64,000 nucleotides of DNA, from the NCBI GenBank assembly GCA_015056945.1, contig SVFH01000001.1, forward strand, positions 1-64,000, given 5' to 3'. This DNA comes from Lachnospiraceae bacterium (lineage in GTDB: Bacteria > Bacillota > Clostridia > Lachnospirales > Lachnospiraceae). How positions within the stretch are numbered: the stretch's first letter is position 1; each line of letters opens with the position of its first letter. A program made the translations under genes and the position numbers. The notes under the pieces are model-generated. The model saw only the letters and a list, made by a program, of their open reading frames with translations. It ran no database searches and was not told where the DNA came from. Below are positions 6,913 through 42,222 of this stretch, one piece after another.

Positions 6913-6944
6913 TTTGTAACTGAATGAGGAAGGGGGGACGCATT

Positions 6945-8558
6945 ATGTCGGATTATTGGAATTTATATCAGCCAGCAATGGACCGTGTACGTCCAGTTGT
7001 GCCCACGAATCCGGAGGGCGCTCCTTCTTCTGTGAAAGAACAGACAGCTCTGTTAAAAGATATGTCAACGGGAGAGACCATACAGGGAGAAATTGTTTCT
7101 GTGAAAGGAAATGAAGTGATGGTCAGGCTCCCCGATCAGTCTGTTATTTCCGCTAAATTGTCCGGCGATTTGCAGATTCAGATTGGGCAAAACTTAATGT
7201 TTGAAGTTTCAAACGGTGCAAACGGTCAAATTGCACTTCGGGCACTGTTTACAAATCTGTCAGGAGGAGAGCTTCTTGCTAATGCACTTGCCGATGCAGG
7301 AATTCCTATAAATGCTGATACGGCGGAAATGGTAGAACAACTGGTGAAAGAAGAACTTCCGATAGGAAGAGAACATCTGCAGGAAGTCTATCGCGATGTT
7401 TTGGAATTTCAGGAACTTAAACCGGCCGAAATTGTTAAAATGCATAAGCTTGGAATTGAAGTTAACGAACATCAGGTGAAACAGTTTTCGGCATTTATCA
7501 ATTGTGAAGAACGTATTGCGAATGATACAATGAATTTAATTGCATCTCTAAAGAATGAAATTGTATCCTTACGTGAAACAGGAAATGCAGAAGCTGCATT
7601 CCGTCTTGAAGTGCAACTTATGAAAATGCTTGCTGAGTCACCCGACACGTTGCCGCTGCAGACGCAGGACGGAAGGATTTTGGGGAAGGATGAGATTCTT
7701 GATTTGTTTCAGAATATTATTTCCGAAGCCGACAATTTGCTCGCAGAAAAAGATGCGGGTTTGTTCAATAAAAATAATGACTTGAACGGACTGCTACGTG
7801 AATTTATGTCTGAAATTTCTGACAATGAGAACCGGAATTTTTCCGTAAAAGAATTGTTTAGTGCAATTAAGGGTGAATTTGAACTTGGAAAGCTTCCGAA
7901 AGAATTTGTGCTTAAGTTGTTTGAAAAGAGCGAATTCTCAGAAATTGTTGGAAAAGCATTGGAAGAACAATGGCTTTTGAAACCAAACGAGGTTGAAGAC
8001 GGAAAGAATATTTCGGATTTTTATCAAAAACTTCAGCAGCATGTTTCGATGCTTTCCGCAACAGCCACAGAAAGTTTGAGCGCATCACAGTCTTTGACAC
8101 AGTCTTTGGCGCAGATGAAGGAGAATGTTGATTTCCTGAATCAATTAAGTCAGATGATTCCGTATGTGCAGTTGCCGCTTAAACTAAACGGACAATCTGC
8201 AACGGGAGATTTATATGTTTTTGCAGATAAAAGACGTTTGAGCGAAAAAGGTGAAAATATAACGGCTGCGTTGCATTTGGATATGCAGCATCTTGGACAT
8301 TTGGATGTATTTGTTAAACTGATAAATGCTAAGGTTGAAACTGATTTTAAGGTTGAGAATGATGCTACGCTTGATTTTTTGAGTAATCATATTGATGTTT
8401 TGAATGAAAGATTAAAAAAGCGCGGATATGAGTTGCAGGTAAATTTGGATAAAATGAAAGAACCGTCCGATATTAAAACAGATTTGATACATGGAGCGAA
8501 AGAAGAAACGGTAGAAAGCCAACCGATTGCTTACTATCGCCTAGATGTTAGAGCATAG
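6945..8558 (+). CDS. YlqG/FliK-like protein of unknown function
   Basis: The product has 537 residues from the ATG at 6945, which has an AAGGGGGG site; an ATG at 6924 lies upstream of that site and is less likely. It is acidic, without membrane segments. Residues about 40-100 look like a small beta domain (GETIQGEIVSVKGNEVMV), the middle is helical, and the last about 130 residues (PLKLNG..., AALHLDMQHLGHLDV..., RLKKRGYELQV) resemble the C-terminal domain of flagellar hook-length protein FliK. In Bacillus the position between rnhB and ylqH is held by ylqG. Here it also precedes an FlhB-tail-like gene. A FliK/FlhB-like pair without other flagellar genes nearby is curious; the role is unknown. 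Confidence 0.6.
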   Translation: MSDYWNLYQPAMDRVRPVVPTNPEGAPSSVKEQTALLKDMSTGETIQGEIVSVKGNEVMVRLPDQSVISAKLSGDLQIQIGQNLMFEVSNGANGQIALRALFTNLSGGELLANALADAGIPINADTAEMVEQLVKEELPIGREHLQEVYRDVLEFQELKPAEIVKMHKLGIEVNEHQVKQFSAFINCEERIANDTMNLIASLKNEIVSLRETGNAEAAFRLEVQLMKMLAESPDTLPLQTQDGRILGKDEILDLFQNIISEADNLLAEKDAGLFNKNNDLNGLLREFMSEISDNENRNFSVKELFSAIKGEFELGKLPKEFVLKLFEKSEFSEIVGKALEEQWLLKPNEVEDGKNISDFYQKLQQHVSMLSATATESLSASQSLTQSLAQMKENVDFLNQLSQMIPYVQLPLKLNGQSATGDLYVFADKRRLSEKGENITAALHLDMQHLGHLDVFVKLINAKVETDFKVENDATLDFLSNHIDVLNERLKKRGYELQVNLDKMKEPSDIKTDLIHGAKEETVESQPIAYYRLDVRA

Positions 8559-8580
8559 CTTTTGGCGTGAGAGGTATTTC

Positions 8581-8874
8581 ATGGATATAAAAAAGAAAAA
8601 AGTGAAACAGGCGATAGCCCTGGAATACAATCCTGCGGAGGATGCACCGAAAGTTATAGCTTCCGGTCAGGGGGCTTTGGCGGAACGTATTATAGAGAAA
8701 GCGAAAGAGAATAATGTGCCTCTTCATCGGGATGATTCGCTTGCCGAAACACTTTCCAGATTGGAAATCGGCGAGATGATTCCGCCGGAATTGTATGAAG
8801 TGGTTGCAGAAATTCTTGTGTTTGTTGATGCAATGGATAAAATCAGACAAAAAGAATTAGAACGGGGGAAATAA
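8581..8874 (+). CDS. ylqH: FlhB C-terminal-domain-like protein (YlqH family)
   Basis: This 97-residue protein matches the cytoplasmic tail of FlhB/EscU export-switch proteins: A-L-x-YNP near the start, PKVIASGQGALAERI, then a small alpha/beta fold with the PLHRDDSLAETL segment. It has no membrane part and lacks the N-P-T-H autocleavage motif, having YNPAEDAP at the corresponding place. The ATG at 8581 follows GAGAGG by 6 nt; an ATG 36 nt upstream inside the preceding gene lacks a site. Its position after rnhB and a FliK-like gene matches Bacillus ylqH. Confidence 0.8.
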   Translation: MDIKKKKVKQAIALEYNPAEDAPKVIASGQGALAERIIEKAKENNVPLHRDDSLAETLSRLEIGEMIPPELYEVVAEILVFVDAMDKIRQKELERGK

Positions 8875-9233
8875 TTATAGATAGGAACAAACGTGAGGTT
8901 GGCGCCTCATATGAAAAAATTGCGGAAGAATTTCTTTTGAGTAATAATATAAGGATTGTTGAAAGAAACTTTCGTACACGTTTCGGTGAAATTGATTTAA
9001 TCGGTTATGACGGTGAATATTTGGTGTTTTTTGAAGTGAAATACAGAAGAACGAAATTATACGGAGCTCCGGTACAGGCAGTAAATACGGGAAAACAACA
9101 TGTTATTTGCAGAGTGGCGGATTTTTACAGAATGAAAAAGCGTATTGGTGATTTTGAACCAATGCGCTTTGATATTATCAGTATTCATAATGGAAAAATA
9201 ACCTGGTATAAAAATGCATACGACTATTGTTAA
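8874..9233 (+). CDS. yraN: YraN/UPF0102 family protein with apparent non-AUG start
   Basis: YraN proteins have a restriction-endonuclease-like fold; their role is poorly known. The family core RNFRTRFGEIDLIG followed by FFEVKYRR is clear. The family N-terminus (NKREVGASYEKIAEEFL) is also present in frame, but it lies upstream of the first ATG, GTG or TTG in this frame (a TTG at 8937), with only a stop at 8838-8840 before it. Translation therefore probably starts at ATT (8874) or ATA (8877), 5-8 nt after a GGGGG run and overlapping the stop of the previous gene. The product would be about 118-119 residues, normal for YraN. A short indel is the alternative. Confidence 0.8.
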   Translation: MIDRNKREVGASYEKIAEEFLLSNNIRIVERNFRTRFGEIDLIGYDGEYLVFFEVKYRRTKLYGAPVQAVNTGKQHVICRVADFYRMKKRIGDFEPMRFDIISIHNGKITWYKNAYDYC

Positions 9234-9652
9234 GAGAATGGATCCCGGCAATGAAAAAGTTGAAAAGCCTTTCTTAAAAAGGCATCCATTTGTTCATCGG
9301 TGATTGTTGCGTTGTTGGAATCAATTTTAGATTCGGTTTCAGCGCGAAGCATATTGCTGTAATGATCGGCAGGACGGATTTTTGTACCGTTTATTTGTGC
9401 ATTGTTATGAGTAGGCACAACAAATTGCTCGCGCCTGTAAAGTAAACCTTTGTTTTTAGCAAAAGAGGATTTTGCAGATGTTTCCAGTGTTGCTGCCAAT
9501 TCGCCTTTTTGGAGGTTTGCAGAATCGGATTTATTTCCTTCGGCAGTTTTGTTTATTGCACTTTTAGAAAGGGCATCAGCAGATGAAACAGCAGAATATA
9601 AAGAAGTTGTCTGATTTAAATTCTTATAAAAGTTTTGATCTGTTATATTCAT
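9230..9652 (-). CDS. Small Ser/Ala/Asn-rich protein, unknown function
   Basis: The reverse strand carries a 140-residue frame with a very strong AGGAGGAGG site and its own promoter-like sequence. The product is polar and low in complexity, with no signal peptide, membrane segment or cysteine pair. It is rich in Ser, Ala, Asn and Lys up to residue 65, and has an R-A-E-T/S-E-S-K-I helix and a T-D-E-Q-M-D-A-F-L-R-K-A segment near the end. It converges on yraN with a 4-nt overlap. I do not recognise the family. Confidence 0.65.
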   Translation of the reverse strand: MNITDQNFYKNLNQTTSLYSAVSSADALSKSAINKTAEGNKSDSANLQKGELAATLETSAKSSFAKNKGLLYRREQFVVPTHNNAQINGTKIRPADHYSNMLRAETESKIDSNNATITDEQMDAFLRKAFQLFHCRDPFS

Positions 9653-9827: not shown

Positions 9828-10694
9828 ATGAAATTAGGAATTGTTTTGGAAGGCGGCGGAATGAGAGGTCTTTACAGTGCCGGAATTCTGGATGTATTGA
9901 TGGAAGAAGGTATTGTGGCGGATGGCCTTGTAGGTGTTTCCGCGGGTGCAGTATTCGGAAGCAATTATATGTCGAAGCAGATTGGACGTGCCATCAGATA
10001 TAATAAAAAAGTATGCAAAGATCCTCGTTACGGAACCATTCGTTCTTTGATAAAATCCGGCGATATGTTTGAAGTTGAATTTTGCTATCATGAAATTCCG
10101 GAACAAATTGACCCGGTTGATGTTGAAACATACAGAAACAATCCGATGGAATTCTATGTTACATGTGCAGATGTCTCGGATGCGTCTGCTGTTTATCATA
10201 GATCCGTTTCAATGGAAGAATCTTTAAAATGGCTTCAGGCCTCTGCATCCATGCCGATGGTTTCGCGTCCTGTTAAAATCGGAGAGAAAGAATATCTCGA
10301 CGGCGGAATTGCTGATTCGATTCCGATTTCCTTTATGCGACAAAAGGGTTTTGACAGAAATATTGTTGTTTTGACAAGACCGCGCGGATACAGAAAAACC
10401 AAAAATAAATTTATGTTACCGGCAAAAATTATATTGCGTAAAATGCCTGCTGTGATTGCAGCAATGAAAACTCGTCATATTAATTACAATCATACGCTGG
10501 AAAAACTCGAAGAATTAGAGAAAAACGGTGAAGTATTTGCGTTTTATCCTAAAAAAGAGGATATTGTCAGCAGGACGGAAAGTGACCCGAATCGTCTACA
10601 AAAAATTTATGATGCCGGACGCCGTGATGCCTTAGAAAATCTTGAAGAACTCAAGAAATTTGTAGAAAAAGCGCGTGTCGAAAAGCCTTTCTAA
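9828..10694 (+). CDS. Patatin-like phospholipase
   Basis: This 288-residue protein belongs to the patatin lipid acyl hydrolase family. The oxyanion hole GGGMRG (about 9-14), the nucleophile elbow G-V-S-A-G (Ser around residue 39) and the catalytic aspartate in DGG (around residue 158) are all present, so it should be active with a Ser-Asp dyad. There is no signal peptide, so it is probably cytosolic. It resembles the bacterial RssA/YlbK-type subgroup. It is transcribed from its own consensus promoter; the physiological lipid is unknown. Confidence 0.88.
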   Translation: MKLGIVLEGGGMRGLYSAGILDVLMEEGIVADGLVGVSAGAVFGSNYMSKQIGRAIRYNKKVCKDPRYGTIRSLIKSGDMFEVEFCYHEIPEQIDPVDVETYRNNPMEFYVTCADVSDASAVYHRSVSMEESLKWLQASASMPMVSRPVKIGEKEYLDGGIADSIPISFMRQKGFDRNIVVLTRPRGYRKTKNKFMLPAKIILRKMPAVIAAMKTRHINYNHTLEKLEELEKNGEVFAFYPKKEDIVSRTESDPNRLQKIYDAGRRDALENLEELKKFVEKARVEKPF

Positions 10695-10710: not shown

Positions 10711-10739
10711 TTGAAATCAGAAAGATTCCCCGATATAAT
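10711..10739 (+). promoter_or_regulatory. Consensus sigma-A promoter for the Spo0A-like gene
   Basis: TTGAAA (10711-10716), a 17-nt spacer and a perfect TATAAT (10734-10739). The expected start site is near 10746, right beside the dyad at 10748-10764. Confidence 0.8.
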
Positions 10740-10766: not shown

Positions 10767-10808
10767 TTCAATAAGAGGTGTACTTTTATTGGATGAAAGG
10801 AGAATATC

Positions 10809-11345
10809 ATGGAACAATTAAATCTCATGTCTACGCAGGATAACGTAAAAGTGTTTGATATTTTATCTGATTTACTCGAAGGTGATAAAGAATTTCAAAT
10901 TATGATTACCGTACCCGGTATAAAAAAAGAGAAAACTGCTTTTCAGGCTTCTTCTTTTTCCGAAACGAAAAAAATGATTTTGCCGACAGAACGTGATCTT
11001 GAACGTGAGGTAACGGAAATGATTCATGAAATCGGTGTTCCTGCCCATATCAAAGGGTATCAATATCTCCGGGAGGCAATTATGGTTTCGGTGGAAGATG
11101 CCGAAATGCTTAATTCGATTACCAAGCTTTTGTATCCGTCCATTGCAAAGAAATTTCAAACGACACCAAGCAGGGTGGAAAGAGCAATCAGACATGCGAT
11201 TGAAGTTGCATGGAGCAGGGGCAGAATGGAGACCTTGGATGCTTTGTTTGGCTATACCGTAAATCACGGCAAAGGGAAACCTACAAACTCTGAATTTATT
11301 GCATTGATTGCTGACCGAATTCGATTGCAATATCGATTGGGATGA
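10809..11345 (+). CDS. Spo0A-like DNA-binding protein lacking a receiver domain
   Basis: Residues about 70-178 match the Spo0A effector domain: [30 protein letters not shown], the recognition segment [18 protein letters not shown], and [17 protein letters not shown]. Spo0A normally has about 260 residues with a phosphorylated receiver; this protein has 178 and the first 70 contain no receiver with a phosphoacceptor aspartate. Residues 10-33 (QDN...[14 protein letters not shown]) loosely recall the first helix of a Spo0A receiver, as if most of the receiver had been deleted. The upstream 114 nt hold a promoter, not receiver sequence, and a GAAAGGAG site supports the start. It could be a constitutive activator, or a competitor for Spo0A sites. 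Whether a full Spo0A exists elsewhere cannot be seen here. Confidence 0.85.
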
Positions 11346-11353: not shown

Positions 11354-11416
11354 AATTTATTAAGAGATGGGGATTTCTTAGGGGTTTTTACATGATGATA
11401 TATGGAGGGCGATACG

Positions 11417-12862
11417 ATGAAAAACATTCTATTTGTAGCTTCTGAAGGTGTTCCTTTTATCAAAACAGGCGGTCTTGCTGATGTAGTTGGTTCTTTGCCG
11501 AAATGTGTTGACAAAAGATATTTTGATGTTCGTGTCATGTTGCCGAAATATACCTGTATTCCTCAAGAGTGGAAGGATAAAATGGAGTTTAAAACTTCGT
11601 TTTATATGGATTTTAACTGGAAGAATGAATACGTTGGTATTTTAGAGGCTAAAGTGGATGGCGTGATTTATTATTTTATCGATAATGAATCTATGTTTGG
11701 CGGATTTCGTCCATACAGTAACAATGTTTATGATGATATTGTTAAATTTACGTTCTTTTCTAAGGCTGCTCTTTCTGCAATGCCTTTGTTGGGATTTAGA
11801 CCGGATGTGATTCATTGTCATGACTGGCAGACGGGACTTGTGCCGGTTTATTTAAGAGAGCGATTCCAGGGGAATCCGTTCTTCCACGGTATCAAATCCG
11901 TTATGACAATTCATAACCTGAAATTCCAGGGTAAATGGGATGTAAAGACAATCAAAGAGATTTCCGGTTTGGATGAATCTTATTTTACACCCGATAAGCT
12001 GGAAGCATATAAGAATGCAAATCTGCTCAAGGGCGGTTTGGTTTATGCTGATGCAATTACTACGGTTAGTGATACATACGCACGAGAAATTATGACTCCG
12101 TTCTACGGAGAAAGCCTAGATGGCCTGTTACGTGCAAGAGAGCATGATTTACGTGGTATTGTGAATGGCATTGATTATAAGGATTATAATCCGGAGAATG
12201 ATAAGTATATTGATTTTAGATACAATGCAAAGAATTTCCGCAAAGAAAAGATTAAGAATAAGAGAAACCTTCAAAAAGAACTTGGTCTTGAACAGAATGA
12301 TAAAATTATGATGATTGGTATTGTATCCCGTTTGACAGATCAGAAAGGATTTGACCTGATTGCTTATATGATGGATGAACTTTGTCAGGATGCAGTACAG
12401 ATTGTCGTGCTCGGAACAGGCGATGAACAATATGAAAATATGTTCCGTCATTTTGACTGGAAGTACAGTAATAAAGTTTCTGCAAATATTTATTATTCGG
12501 AAGAAATGTCACATAAGATTTATGCCGCGTGTGATGCATTTTTGATGCCGTCATTATTTGAACCTTGCGGATTAAGTCAGCTGATGTCCTTGCGTTACGG
12601 AACACTTCCGATTGTAAGAGAAACAGGCGGTTTGAAAGATACCGTAGAACCTTACAATGAATATGAAAGTACGGGTACAGGCTTTAGCTTTGTGAACTAC
12701 AATGCGCATGAAATGCTTGCAACGGTACGTTATGCTGAAAAGATTTATTATGATAAGAAACGTGAATGGAATAAAATGATTGACCGTGCTATGGCTGCTG
12801 ATTTTTCATGGGAAGTATCGGCATTGAAATATCAGGAAATGTATGATTGGCTGATTGGTTAA
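11417..12862 (+). CDS. glgA: Glycogen synthase (GT5)
   Basis: GlgA transfers glucose from ADP-glucose to a growing alpha-1,4-glucan. The KTGGLADVVG motif near residues 15-24 binds the sugar nucleotide, and the C-terminal half carries the GT-B donor domain with SLFEPCGLSQL and the ETGGL loop. At 481 residues it is the standard length. I start at the ATG at 11417, 7 nt after GGAGGG; an ATG 15 nt upstream lies before that site. No other glg genes are adjacent. Glycogen storage is common in spore-forming clostridia. Confidence 0.95.
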   Translation: MKNILFVASEGVPFIKTGGLADVVGSLPKCVDKRYFDVRVMLPKYTCIPQEWKDKMEFKTSFYMDFNWKNEYVGILEAKVDGVIYYFIDNESMFGGFRPYSNNVYDDIVKFTFFSKAALSAMPLLGFRPDVIHCHDWQTGLVPVYLRERFQGNPFFHGIKSVMTIHNLKFQGKWDVKTIKEISGLDESYFTPDKLEAYKNANLLKGGLVYADAITTVSDTYAREIMTPFYGESLDGLLRAREHDLRGIVNGIDYKDYNPENDKYIDFRYNAKNFRKEKIKNKRNLQKELGLEQNDKIMMIGIVSRLTDQKGFDLIAYMMDELCQDAVQIVVLGTGDEQYENMFRHFDWKYSNKVSANIYYSEEMSHKIYAACDAFLMPSLFEPCGLSQLMSLRYGTLPIVRETGGLKDTVEPYNEYESTGTGFSFVNYNAHEMLATVRYAEKIYYDKKREWNKMIDRAMAADFSWEVSALKYQEMYDWLIG

Positions 12863-40734: not shown

Positions 40735-42222
40735 ATGGAATTAGAACATTTTCACACAAATGATCTTTACCGCGATATTTCACAAAGATGTAATGGTGAG
40801 ATCTATCTTGGAATCGTTGGACCTGTCAGAACCGGAAAATCTACATTTATTAAGCGCTTTATGGATCTTCTGGTGTTACCGAATATGACGGATGAAAACG
40901 AAAGAAGCAGAACGAAGGATGAATTGCCGCAAAGCGGAGACGGTAAAATGATAACAACGACTGAACCGAAATTCATTCCTAATAAAGCAGCAGAAATTAC
41001 GCTTTCTGAAGATGTTTCTTTTAAGGTTCGTTTGATTGATTGCGTCGGATATATGGTAGACGGAGCGACAGGGCATATAGAAAACGGCAAAGAAAGAATG
41101 GTTAAAACACCCTGGTCTGAAGAAGCAATTCCTTTTTCCAAGGCTGCTGAAATCGGGACGGATAAAGTGATTTTAAAGCATTCTACGGTTGGAATTGTCA
41201 TTGTAAGTGACGGAAGTTTTACGGATATTGATAAAGGGGCATATATGGATGCTGCAGATGAAGCGATTGTCCGCTTGAAGAAGTTAAATAAACCGTTTAT
41301 TGTACTTGTCAATACAACAAAGCCTTATGGAGATGATGTAAAAGAAATGGTTTGCGCAATTGAAGAAAAATATCGTGTAAAAGCGCTTGCAGTCAATTGC
41401 GCACAGTTAAAAAAAGATGATATTTGTTTGATTCTTAAAGAACTGTTGTATGCATTTCCGATTTCGAAAATTTCATTTCAAACACCGAAATGGATTCAGT
41501 TTCTTTCTGAAGAGCATCCGTTGCGGAATGAACTGTTGCAATCAGTCAAAACATTTATGGATGATTTGTATCAAATGAAAGATTTTGTGTGTAAAGAGCT
41601 TAGTTTCGAAACGGAAGCAGTAAGAAAGATGAAATTAGAAAGTCTTAATCTTTCTAACGGAGCCATTCGGATTCGACTGGATGTGGATGATTCCTATTAC
41701 TATGATATGCTTAGTACACTTTTGGACGAAAAAATCGAATCGGAGCATGATTTTATACATATTTTGAAAGAAATCGGCGAGCGTAGGAACGAGTATAAAA
41801 AAGTAGAAAAAGCATTGGAAGATGTACGCACAAACGGTTACGGTGTCGTCACACCTGAAATTGAAGAGATTACATTGATGAAGCCGGAAGTGATTAAAAA
41901 CGGAAACAAATACGGAATTAAAATAACAGCCCACAGTCCGAGTATTCATTTAATAAAAGCGGACGTTGAGAGCGAAATTTCTCCAATTGTCGGAACGAAA
42001 ACACAGGCGGAGGACTTGATATCATTTATCGAGGAAGAAGAAACCAAGATGCATGGTATTTGGGAAACAAATATTTTTGGTAAAACTGTGGAACAGCTTG
42101 TGCGAGAAGGTATTGATGGTAAAATGTCGAATATCGGAAATGAAAGTCAGATTAAATTGCAGGAAACCATGCAAAAGATTGTGAATGAATCCACAGGCGG
42201 AATGGTTTGTATTATCATTTGA
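40735..42222 (+). CDS. spoIVA: Spore coat morphogenetic ATPase SpoIVA
   Basis: SpoIVA polymerises on the forespore surface, using ATP, to form the base of the coat. The 495 residues carry an N-terminal TRAFAC-like ATPase domain with Walker A GPVRTGKS (about 29-36), followed by the family's TTTEPKFIPN and RLIDCVGY segments, and end in the conserved hydrophobic tail GGMVCIII that docks SpoIVA through SpoVM. Length and ends match the family. Expression is probably sigma-E-dependent from the promoter just upstream. Confidence 0.98.
   Translation: MELEHFHTNDLYRDISQRCNGEIYLGIVGPVRTGKSTFIKRFMDLLVLPNMTDENERSRTKDELPQSGDGKMITTTEPKFIPNKAAEITLSEDVSFKVRLIDCVGYMVDGATGHIENGKERMVKTPWSEEAIPFSKAAEIGTDKVILKHSTVGIVIVSDGSFTDIDKGAYMDAADEAIVRLKKLNKPFIVLVNTTKPYGDDVKEMVCAIEEKYRVKALAVNCAQLKKDDICLILKELLYAFPISKISFQTPKWIQFLSEEHPLRNELLQSVKTFMDDLYQMKDFVCKELSFETEAVRKMKLESLNLSNGAIRIRLDVDDSYYYDMLSTLLDEKIESEHDFIHILKEIGERRNEYKKVEKALEDVRTNGYGVVTPEIEEITLMKPEVIKNGNKYGIKITAHSPSIHLIKADVESEISPIVGTKTQAEDLISFIEEEETKMHGIWETNIFGKTVEQLVREGIDGKMSNIGNESQIKLQETMQKIVNESTGGMVCIII

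Follow-up and report, generated by a model that had tools for sequence, protein, structure and literature searches.

The window, i.e., the whole stretch of 64,000 nucleotides of Lachnospiraceae bacterium contig SVFH01000001.1 that was analysed, contains a gene for a Spo0A protein of 178 amino acids from which most of the receiver domain has been lost. Judged by sequence and gene position, this protein is the spo0A orthologue of its genome and of a whole Lachnospiraceae clade, and not an extra regulator; we hold the architecture, the orthology and the loss of the receiver from the orthologue with high confidence. According to the excerpts of PMC11210211 and PMC3533761, the key switch by which bacilli and clostridia enter sporulation is phosphorylation of the Spo0A receiver. 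This step cannot take place in the orthologue of at least 18 Lachnospiraceae genera, across which the receiver-less form is spread and which keep sporulation genes. We consider it likely that in this clade a phosphorylation-independent Spo0A starts sporulation and that the remnant of the receiver serves as a new module. If these bacteria sporulate, the start is probably unlike that in the textbook species, and it becomes testable whether phosphorylation is needed for the sporulation decision or only for its timing. The coordinates of the features are collected in Table 1.

Table 1. Features of the receiver-less spo0A gene and its surroundings in the window.
Feature	Position	Strand	Basis
receiver-less spo0A, 178 aa	10809..11345	+	ORF list, Pfam, NCBIfam, PDB matches
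residues 1-36, receiver remnant, predicted helix 12-24	10809..10916	+	alignment, AlphaFold2
residues 28-36 (EFQIMITVP) codons, most conserved stretch of the family	10890..10916	+	conservation count
variable linker (residues 37-61) with predicted disorder at 38-59	10917..10991	+	conservation, AlphaFold2
Spo0A DNA-binding (effector) domain, residues 62-176	10992..11336	+	Pfam, PDB matches
ribosome-binding site AAAGGAG	10796..10802	+	by reading
promoter-like TTGAAA-17-TATAAT, 11/12 positions	10711..10739	+	promoter scan
TGTCGAA, 5' of the promoter-like site	10676..10682	+	by reading
glgA, glycogen-synthase type, conserved downstream neighbour	11402..12862	+	named by reading sequence
spoIVA, sporulation gene in the same window	40735..42222	+	profile match

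The spo0A frame starts with ATG. Its product matches the whole model of Pfam Spo0A_C (PF08769) with residues 68–171 (E = 2.6e-46), and the Spo0A effector domains in the PDB, 1lq1 and 1fc3, correspond to its residues 59–176 and 62–176, respectively. Spo0A_C is the sole Pfam family on the protein among matches listed at E up to 1, and a receiver domain is absent from these matches. NCBIfam TIGR02875 was matched with 201.9 bits (cut-off 200), residues 46–176 covering positions 130–260 of the 262 in the model, and the receiver part of the model was left unmatched. With the receiver domain missing, the protein falls outside the membership of "Response regulator". The phosphoacceptor aspartate is present in all 47 aligned full-length relatives and in B. 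subtilis Spo0A and is missing here. A complete effector domain and the lack of both receiver and phosphoacceptor had been claimed in an earlier note made from the sequence of the window, and both observations are borne out. A weak resemblance of residues 17–48 to Hsp20 (E 0.014) was put down to chance.

The same note had read residues near the start as the beginning of a receiver, most of which had been deleted. Full-length relatives align with the window protein in two blocks, residues 1–32 and 60–177, between which the window protein has about 87 residues fewer (e.g., against L043). The ungapped colinear BLOSUM score of residues 1–36 against full-length Spo0A lies at z = 6.6 over column-shuffled controls, with 12 of 36 consensus identities. 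The two aligned blocks and this score therefore show that the impression of a mostly deleted receiver was correct. By alignment, residues 1–36 correspond to what we take to be β1-α1-β2 of Spo0A. In the AlphaFold2 model, which is a monomer and says nothing on dimerisation, the mean pLDDT is 76; the effector domain is good, helix 12–24 stands at about 73, residues 28–36 are not formed as a strand, and residues 38–59 fall below 50.

The remnant is under strong constraint in the receiver-less family. Over 43 of the 48 receiver-less sequences, the mean pairwise identity reaches 0.950 in residues 28–36, compared with 0.882 in the DNA-binding domain and 0.133 in the linker, the first value being somewhat too high as the five sequences outside the count (L199, L203, L206, L207 and L214) include the most divergent motifs (L206 and L214). 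The corresponding columns of 47 full-length Spo0A proteins give 0.464 and their DNA-binding domain 0.832. F29, Q30, I31, I33 and V35 are invariant in the 43 sequences. dN/dS by region was uninformative, with one unsaturated pair only among the 43. The alternating hydrophobic stretch (F29, I31, I33, V35) after helix 12–24 suggests self-pairing or binding of a partner. In two diverged short Spo0A_C paralogues (L287 of G145 and L288 of G251) the N-terminus reads as a helix-like segment plus a hydrophobic strand-like stretch; the resemblance to the window protein would fit a reused module. Within the effector domain, the commonest residue differs between the groups (48 receiver-less against 75 full-length sequences) at four positions, B. 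subtilis 178, 230, 232 and 234, and the last three presumably lie in a stretch of contact with sigma-A.

As to the surroundings, the gene has its own ribosome-binding site, as had been noted earlier; the promoter claimed with it is promoter-like at best, and the evidence is weak, five such sites having been found by the scan against 2.3 expected. TGTCGAA, which lies further upstream, we take to be the 0A-box core, the motif having been given in the earlier note as well. The upstream neighbour is a patatin-like gene, and the gap of 114 bases between it and the ATG leaves no room for a receiver in the same transcript, a possibility raised in the earlier note. The spo0A gene sits between this patatin-like gene and glgA, not in a phage or prophage. 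The start of glgA was taken as listed, and the second Met may be its start instead. Elsewhere in the window, a FliK-type hook-length gene (6924–8558) is directly followed by a solo FlhB C-terminal domain (8545–8874; Pfam PF02120 and PF01312), and an ORF of 140 aa without Pfam match (9230–9652, minus strand) lies among plus-strand genes.

The same architecture was found in 47 other loci (48 with the window), one of which comes from a duplicate genome (L202 = L030; G057 = G047). These comprise 25 loci (L014–L038) from the best 80 of more than 589 relatives in a collection of 84,980 species genomes, five loci of the window genus (L003–L007) and 17 loci of a family survey (L199–L215). The 25 match residues 1–175 to 1–177 of the window protein with 61–78% identity. 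Their titles read Lachnospiraceae, Acetatifactor, Blautia, Clostridiales or uncultured bacterium, and 24 of them are metagenome-assembled by title; for L035, a genome of a mouse catalogue, nothing on cultured status was found in the main text of PMC8763404. The family survey covered 220 genomes from 219 genera, all at least 90% complete except the own genome. Spo0A_C occurs in 150 of them, and the best match is listed for 140, among which 18 are receiver-less (the own genome and 17 other genera) and 120 are frames of at least 260 aa. The 17 loci were all read as receiver-less by sequence; the 120 were called full-length by frame length, 21 of them having been read by sequence for the trees. 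The remaining two matches are a short frame (G191) and a stop-interrupted one (G083), the latter being a receiver-less-type spo0A with one stop codon (L216), possibly a decaying copy. Compared with full-length relatives, residues 59–176 of the window protein are 83% identical to the effector domain of L039 and 82% to those of L041 and L042. Neighbouring full-length Spo0A copies were also seen in the survey (e.g., G144 C22 and G111 C6), and one 3-kb contig (L083) contains two full-length Spo0A genes in opposite orientation.

The genomic position argues for orthology. Neighbour genes were named by reading the sequences, and spoIVB also by PF05580. The order in full-length relatives is nadK-argR-recN-spoIVB-spo0A-glgA. 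Downstream, the window has glgA in the same orientation, as do 42 of the 43 receiver-less loci with flanks; the two genes are directly adjacent in 40 of these, and L203 has no glgA in the locus. Upstream, spoIVB is found on the same strand in seven of the 43, five of which also contain recN. It directly adjoins spo0A in L023 and L033, where the exact recN-spoIVB-spo0A-glgA order of the full-length relatives is kept, and is one or two frames off in the other five. In the GlgA tree (111 rows, quick IQ-TREE), calculated after removal of L065, which is cut by the contig end, the 47 receiver-less and 64 full-length loci are separated by one change (SH-aLRT 99), though the sister of the receiver-less clade is poorly supported (37). 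A tree built from the short effector domain has little resolution and needs two changes. The simplest history would be that the deletion occurred once, at the root of a Lachnospiraceae clade.

These comparisons settle several points which the earlier note had left for checking. A sequencing error that fused fragments is ruled out because 47 other loci share the architecture, and assembly error or decay into a pseudogene fails equally on this architecture at a conserved site. The comparison of orthologues across related genomes gave the receiver-less form in all these loci, and the genome search for a full-length spo0A gave none, the own genome having two PF08769 matches only, i.e., the window gene and a divergent protein of 135 aa. 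The case named there of a sole Spo0A copy that is a truncated pseudogene applies by half: the gene is the only orthologous copy, and it is conserved and no pseudogene. A side regulator, brake or extra switch, acting beside a normal Spo0A does not agree with the results, as the protein is the clade's orthologue at the orthologous locus with sporulation genes kept, and no orthologue-grade full-length Spo0A was found in the own genome, the six genus members with the domain or the clade genomes searched. Overall, the earlier observation was confirmed and its interpretation partly supported.

In the window genus, Spo0A domain matches occur in six of 31 genomes, none in a frame longer than 201 aa. 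The other 25, three of which are 99–100% complete (G001, G010 and G022), contain no such domain, and sporulation seems to have been lost often within the genus. In the genomes of L014–L038 the best PF08769 match is the receiver-less gene, in a frame of 171–241 aa; 24 of the 25 contain another match, its frame being 119–170 aa long, and three (G046, G047 and G049) have a third, more distant one in a frame of 244–336 aa. By Pfam, the third-match proteins of G047 and G049 contain no receiver. That of G046 (L165:775-1593) is a two-domain paralogue with Response_reg (6.3e-11) and a diverged Spo0A_C (71.7–73.9 bits), and a similar two-domain protein was recognized by reading in G138 (L286:643-1431), with 44.6 bits to the profile of the solo protein described below. 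The DNA-recognition stretches of both read as very different. The two proteins look like phosphorylatable relatives of Spo0A and, by score, not like orthologues. Such paralogues occur in at least two receiver-less genomes, and weaker Spo0A_C matches were counted in others (e.g., G127, G240 and G221).

A receiver encoded elsewhere was sought with a profile of the missing receiver segment. All 11 full-length genomes reach at least 141.5 bits, and the 19 receiver-less genomes at most 70.2 bits, G221 giving zero matches at 1e-12. A split Spo0A was thus rejected at the sensitivity of this search. The best matches in receiver-less genomes include stand-alone receivers in frames of 122–151 aa, which also occur in full-length genomes with up to 74.0 bits. 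They score much lower than the receiver of a Spo0A, and their frame lengths and scores suggest CheY-type proteins.

The second short protein is a solo Spo0A_C of 107–145 aa, which lies among genes that read as glycosyltransferase-like in a polysaccharide-type cluster (L155, L156, L158–L161, L163 and L166–L168), with one such family common to all ten loci. A profile search of 80 of the 116 genomes, the other 36 being all full-length, found it with scores of at least 180 bits in 16 of the 17 receiver-less genera, the 17th (G219) having a diverged intact one. None of 62 full-length genomes reaches this score; G255 has one at 165.7 bits beside sugar-nucleotide genes. The 0A core was seen upstream of one of nine solo genes. 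In the own genome (G000, 88% complete) and in G008, the short Spo0A_C is of a divergent type only. Such divergent receiver-free proteins of 135–137 aa with 'NIYGYAY' were observed in L154:6936-7343 (own genome, C45), L157, L012 and L013, and in L154 and L157 the gene reads as divergent from one for an XRE-like regulator. The co-occurrence of the solo protein and the absence of Spo0E described below are not independent because the receiver-less genomes form one clade.

Sporulation genes are kept along with the receiver-less gene. In the survey set, SpoIVA was found in all receiver-less genera but G228 (16 of 17), in all three genus members with the gene that were included and in all 12 full-length genomes; none of nine genomes without Spo0A exceeds the cut-off, G106 having a match below it. 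In the other set it is present in 29 of 31 receiver-less genomes, i.e., 24 of the 25 of L014–L038 (not G042) and five of the six of the genus (not G015, 74% complete), and in none of five genus members without Spo0A. SpoIIGA occurs in 19 of 19 receiver-less genomes (17 of 17 other genera) and 11 of 11 full-length ones, the copy of the own genome being the lowest of the complete ones with 97 bits. SpoIVB is present in 28 of the 31 receiver-less genomes, the exceptions being G009, G036 and G045, and in none of four without Spo0A. Sigma-F/G-type matches are strong in 30 of 30, of which only four reach the cut-off of the sigma-F model.

The 0A target sites seem to have been kept as well. Within about 300 bases upstream of spoIIGA, TG.CGAA occurs in 10 of 19 receiver-less genomes (12 sites against 2.4 expected) and in five of nine full-length ones (six against 1.1); none is present there in the own genome. 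Of the 29 loci taken, G084 yielded no frame; the gene starts used are approximate, and the expected numbers, here and for spo0A, come from shuffles which keep base composition only. Upstream of spo0A, TGTCGAA is found in 13 of 48 receiver-less loci (16 sites against 1.6 expected) and in 33 of 47 full-length loci (38 against 1.5), and a coding control gave 0 of 48 (1.8 expected). The 13 comprise all six loci of the window genus and seven of the 42 outside it. As the core is commoner in full-length than in receiver-less loci, autoregulation is not general, which speaks against a model of increased autoregulation.

In C. difficile, Spo0E-like proteins keep Spo0A from being activated by binding to it (excerpts of PMC11210211), and the phosphatase role of Spo0E in B. 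subtilis is described in part of PMC3533761. Spo0E-like phosphatases were found in none of 40 receiver-less genomes, 20 of the 25 genomes of L014–L038 having been included, and in 14 of 40 full-length genomes over the cut-off (16 at E 0.01). Such proteins should be useless with a receiver-less Spo0A, and their absence lends weak support to phosphorylation independence. Nevertheless, six full-length genomes near the receiver-less clade on the weakly supported GlgA tree (G255, G175, G068, G197, G187 and G266) are also without Spo0E, so the loss of Spo0E may predate the deletion.

In the mechanism we propose, a single internal in-frame deletion would have taken out the part of the receiver that lay between about residue 36 and the linker, and with it the phosphoacceptor aspartate. 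The nearly unchanged effector domain would bind 0A boxes without phosphorylation, and the receiver-less protein would be the Spo0A that starts the sporulation cascade. From the missing aspartate we infer independence of phosphorylation. The bypass of phosphorylation suggested in the earlier note is thus plausible, the receiver being deleted, and constitutive action may be conjectured. The retained helix-strand piece would have become a new, strongly constrained module, most likely for self-association or binding of a partner. Control has probably moved from phosphorylation to the amount of protein, by transcription, for which the 0A core upstream in the window genus may be relevant, and to the module; the second receiver-free Spo0A domain of the polysaccharide-type cluster perhaps competes. 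Our confidence is moderate for the role in starting sporulation and low for the regulatory details. According to the excerpts of PMC4689505, the constitutively active, phosphorylation-independent sad67 allele of B. subtilis turns on early sporulation genes, and in rich medium sad67 by itself does not suffice for efficient sporulation, a second condition being required. Therefore, something besides Spo0A must gate sporulation in such a system. The bolder version, in which a gut Lachnospiraceae clade sporulates without Spo0A phosphorylation after one deletion, the remnant having turned into a novel module of control, and in which spore entry and surface polysaccharide both depend on the ratio between two Spo0A domains, is offered tentatively, as an idea more apt to fail than to hold.

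The idea of a ratio leads to an explanation in which the solo Spo0A_C is an antagonist or heterodimer partner and its proportion to the receiver-less protein replaces phosphorylation. It is compatible with our preferred mechanism, and its distribution speaks for it, the solo protein accompanying 16 of 17 receiver-less genera, or all if the diverged copy of G219 is counted, with none of 62 full-length genomes at the same score, a second short frame in 24 of the 25 genomes and a constant glycosyltransferase-like neighbour. Yet one clade means one or two events, the own genome and G008 contain the divergent type only, G255 has a solo beside a full-length Spo0A, and the 0A core precedes only one of nine solo genes; this explanation seems to us rather doubtful. 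Another possibility is that Spo0A has been repurposed for a different programme, such as stationary phase, glycogen or surface polysaccharide, the sporulation genes decaying or being started by another regulator, e.g., a two-domain paralogue. The lack of the domain in 25 of 31 genus members, the constant glgA neighbour, the low SpoIIGA score of the own genome, the distant paralogues of G046 and G138 and the clade-typical residues at positions 230, 232 and 234, in the presumed sigma-A contact stretch, all point that way. We nonetheless regard it as unlikely, in view of SpoIIGA and SpoIVA in 17 and 16 of the 17 other genera, of SpoIVA following the spo0A gene among the 11 genus members (five of six against none of five, the exception being the 74% complete G015), of 0A-like sites still near spoIIGA and of the very different DNA-recognition stretches read in both known two-domain paralogues.

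Two-component control might also persist without a covalent receiver, if the N-terminal module docked a sensor or a receiver in trans. Near-invariance of residues 28–36 is what a binding site would show, and stand-alone receivers are available among the best profile matches. However, such CheY-like receivers are found in full-length genomes too, and there is no conserved upstream partner gene at receiver-less loci, and we regard the docking of a partner of this kind as unlikely. As for an artefact, gut phages do carry Spo0A without a receiver (excerpts of PMC10294663), and 14 phage records match the window protein, so that a phage-borne fragment has to be weighed besides assembly error and pseudogene. 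Against these stand 48 loci with the same architecture, an orthologous chromosomal site and a congruent neighbour-gene tree, and 13 of the 14 phage matches begin at query residue 35 or later, the other one spanning 6–177 at 33% identity. An artefact is thus hardly conceivable, and phage origin was rejected by the GlgA tree and the poor coverage of the N-terminus. A phosphorylation-independent Spo0A that starts sporulation remains the explanation which we prefer.

In our searches of the open-access literature, receiver-less Spo0A was described in phages only, and no publication turned up in which the Spo0A belonging to a bacterial lineage itself is without a receiver. The present case exemplifies, in nature, the loss of the receiver by a response regulator, and it bears on surveys in which the presence of spo0A is used as a sporulation marker, as in the parts of PMC8340488 and PMC11536998 that describe it. 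With Spo0A of other Lachnospiraceae and of Bacillus (TIGR02875), the window protein shares the effector domain, the gene position and the start of the receiver; it differs in being about 87 residues shorter, in having neither receiver nor aspartate and in the near-invariant EFQIMITVP. The phage homologues likewise have an effector domain without receiver, and their authors suggest independence from the normal host signals (PMC10294663, in excerpt). The window protein, however, belongs to the bacterium itself, as the orthologue at the spo0A locus, and has kept a conserved remnant of the receiver, and only one of the 14 phage matches reaches residues 1–34. The solo Spo0A_C proteins of the same genomes also lack a receiver, though they are a separate paralogue at a different locus with a signature of their own and no EFQIMITVP module. 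Aspartate-less and pseudo-receivers, as presented in excerpts of PMC4395418 and PMC12632262, are alike in that response regulators have been freed from phosphorylation, but they keep the receiver fold, of which the window protein has lost most. A further parallel is Spo0A-Sad67, an altered Spo0A active without phosphorylation (PMC4689505 and PMC6391423, in excerpt), an activity which would be shared by the window protein. Sad67 is nevertheless a laboratory allele of one species, whereas the form described here is natural, involves a far larger loss and extends over at least 18 genera.
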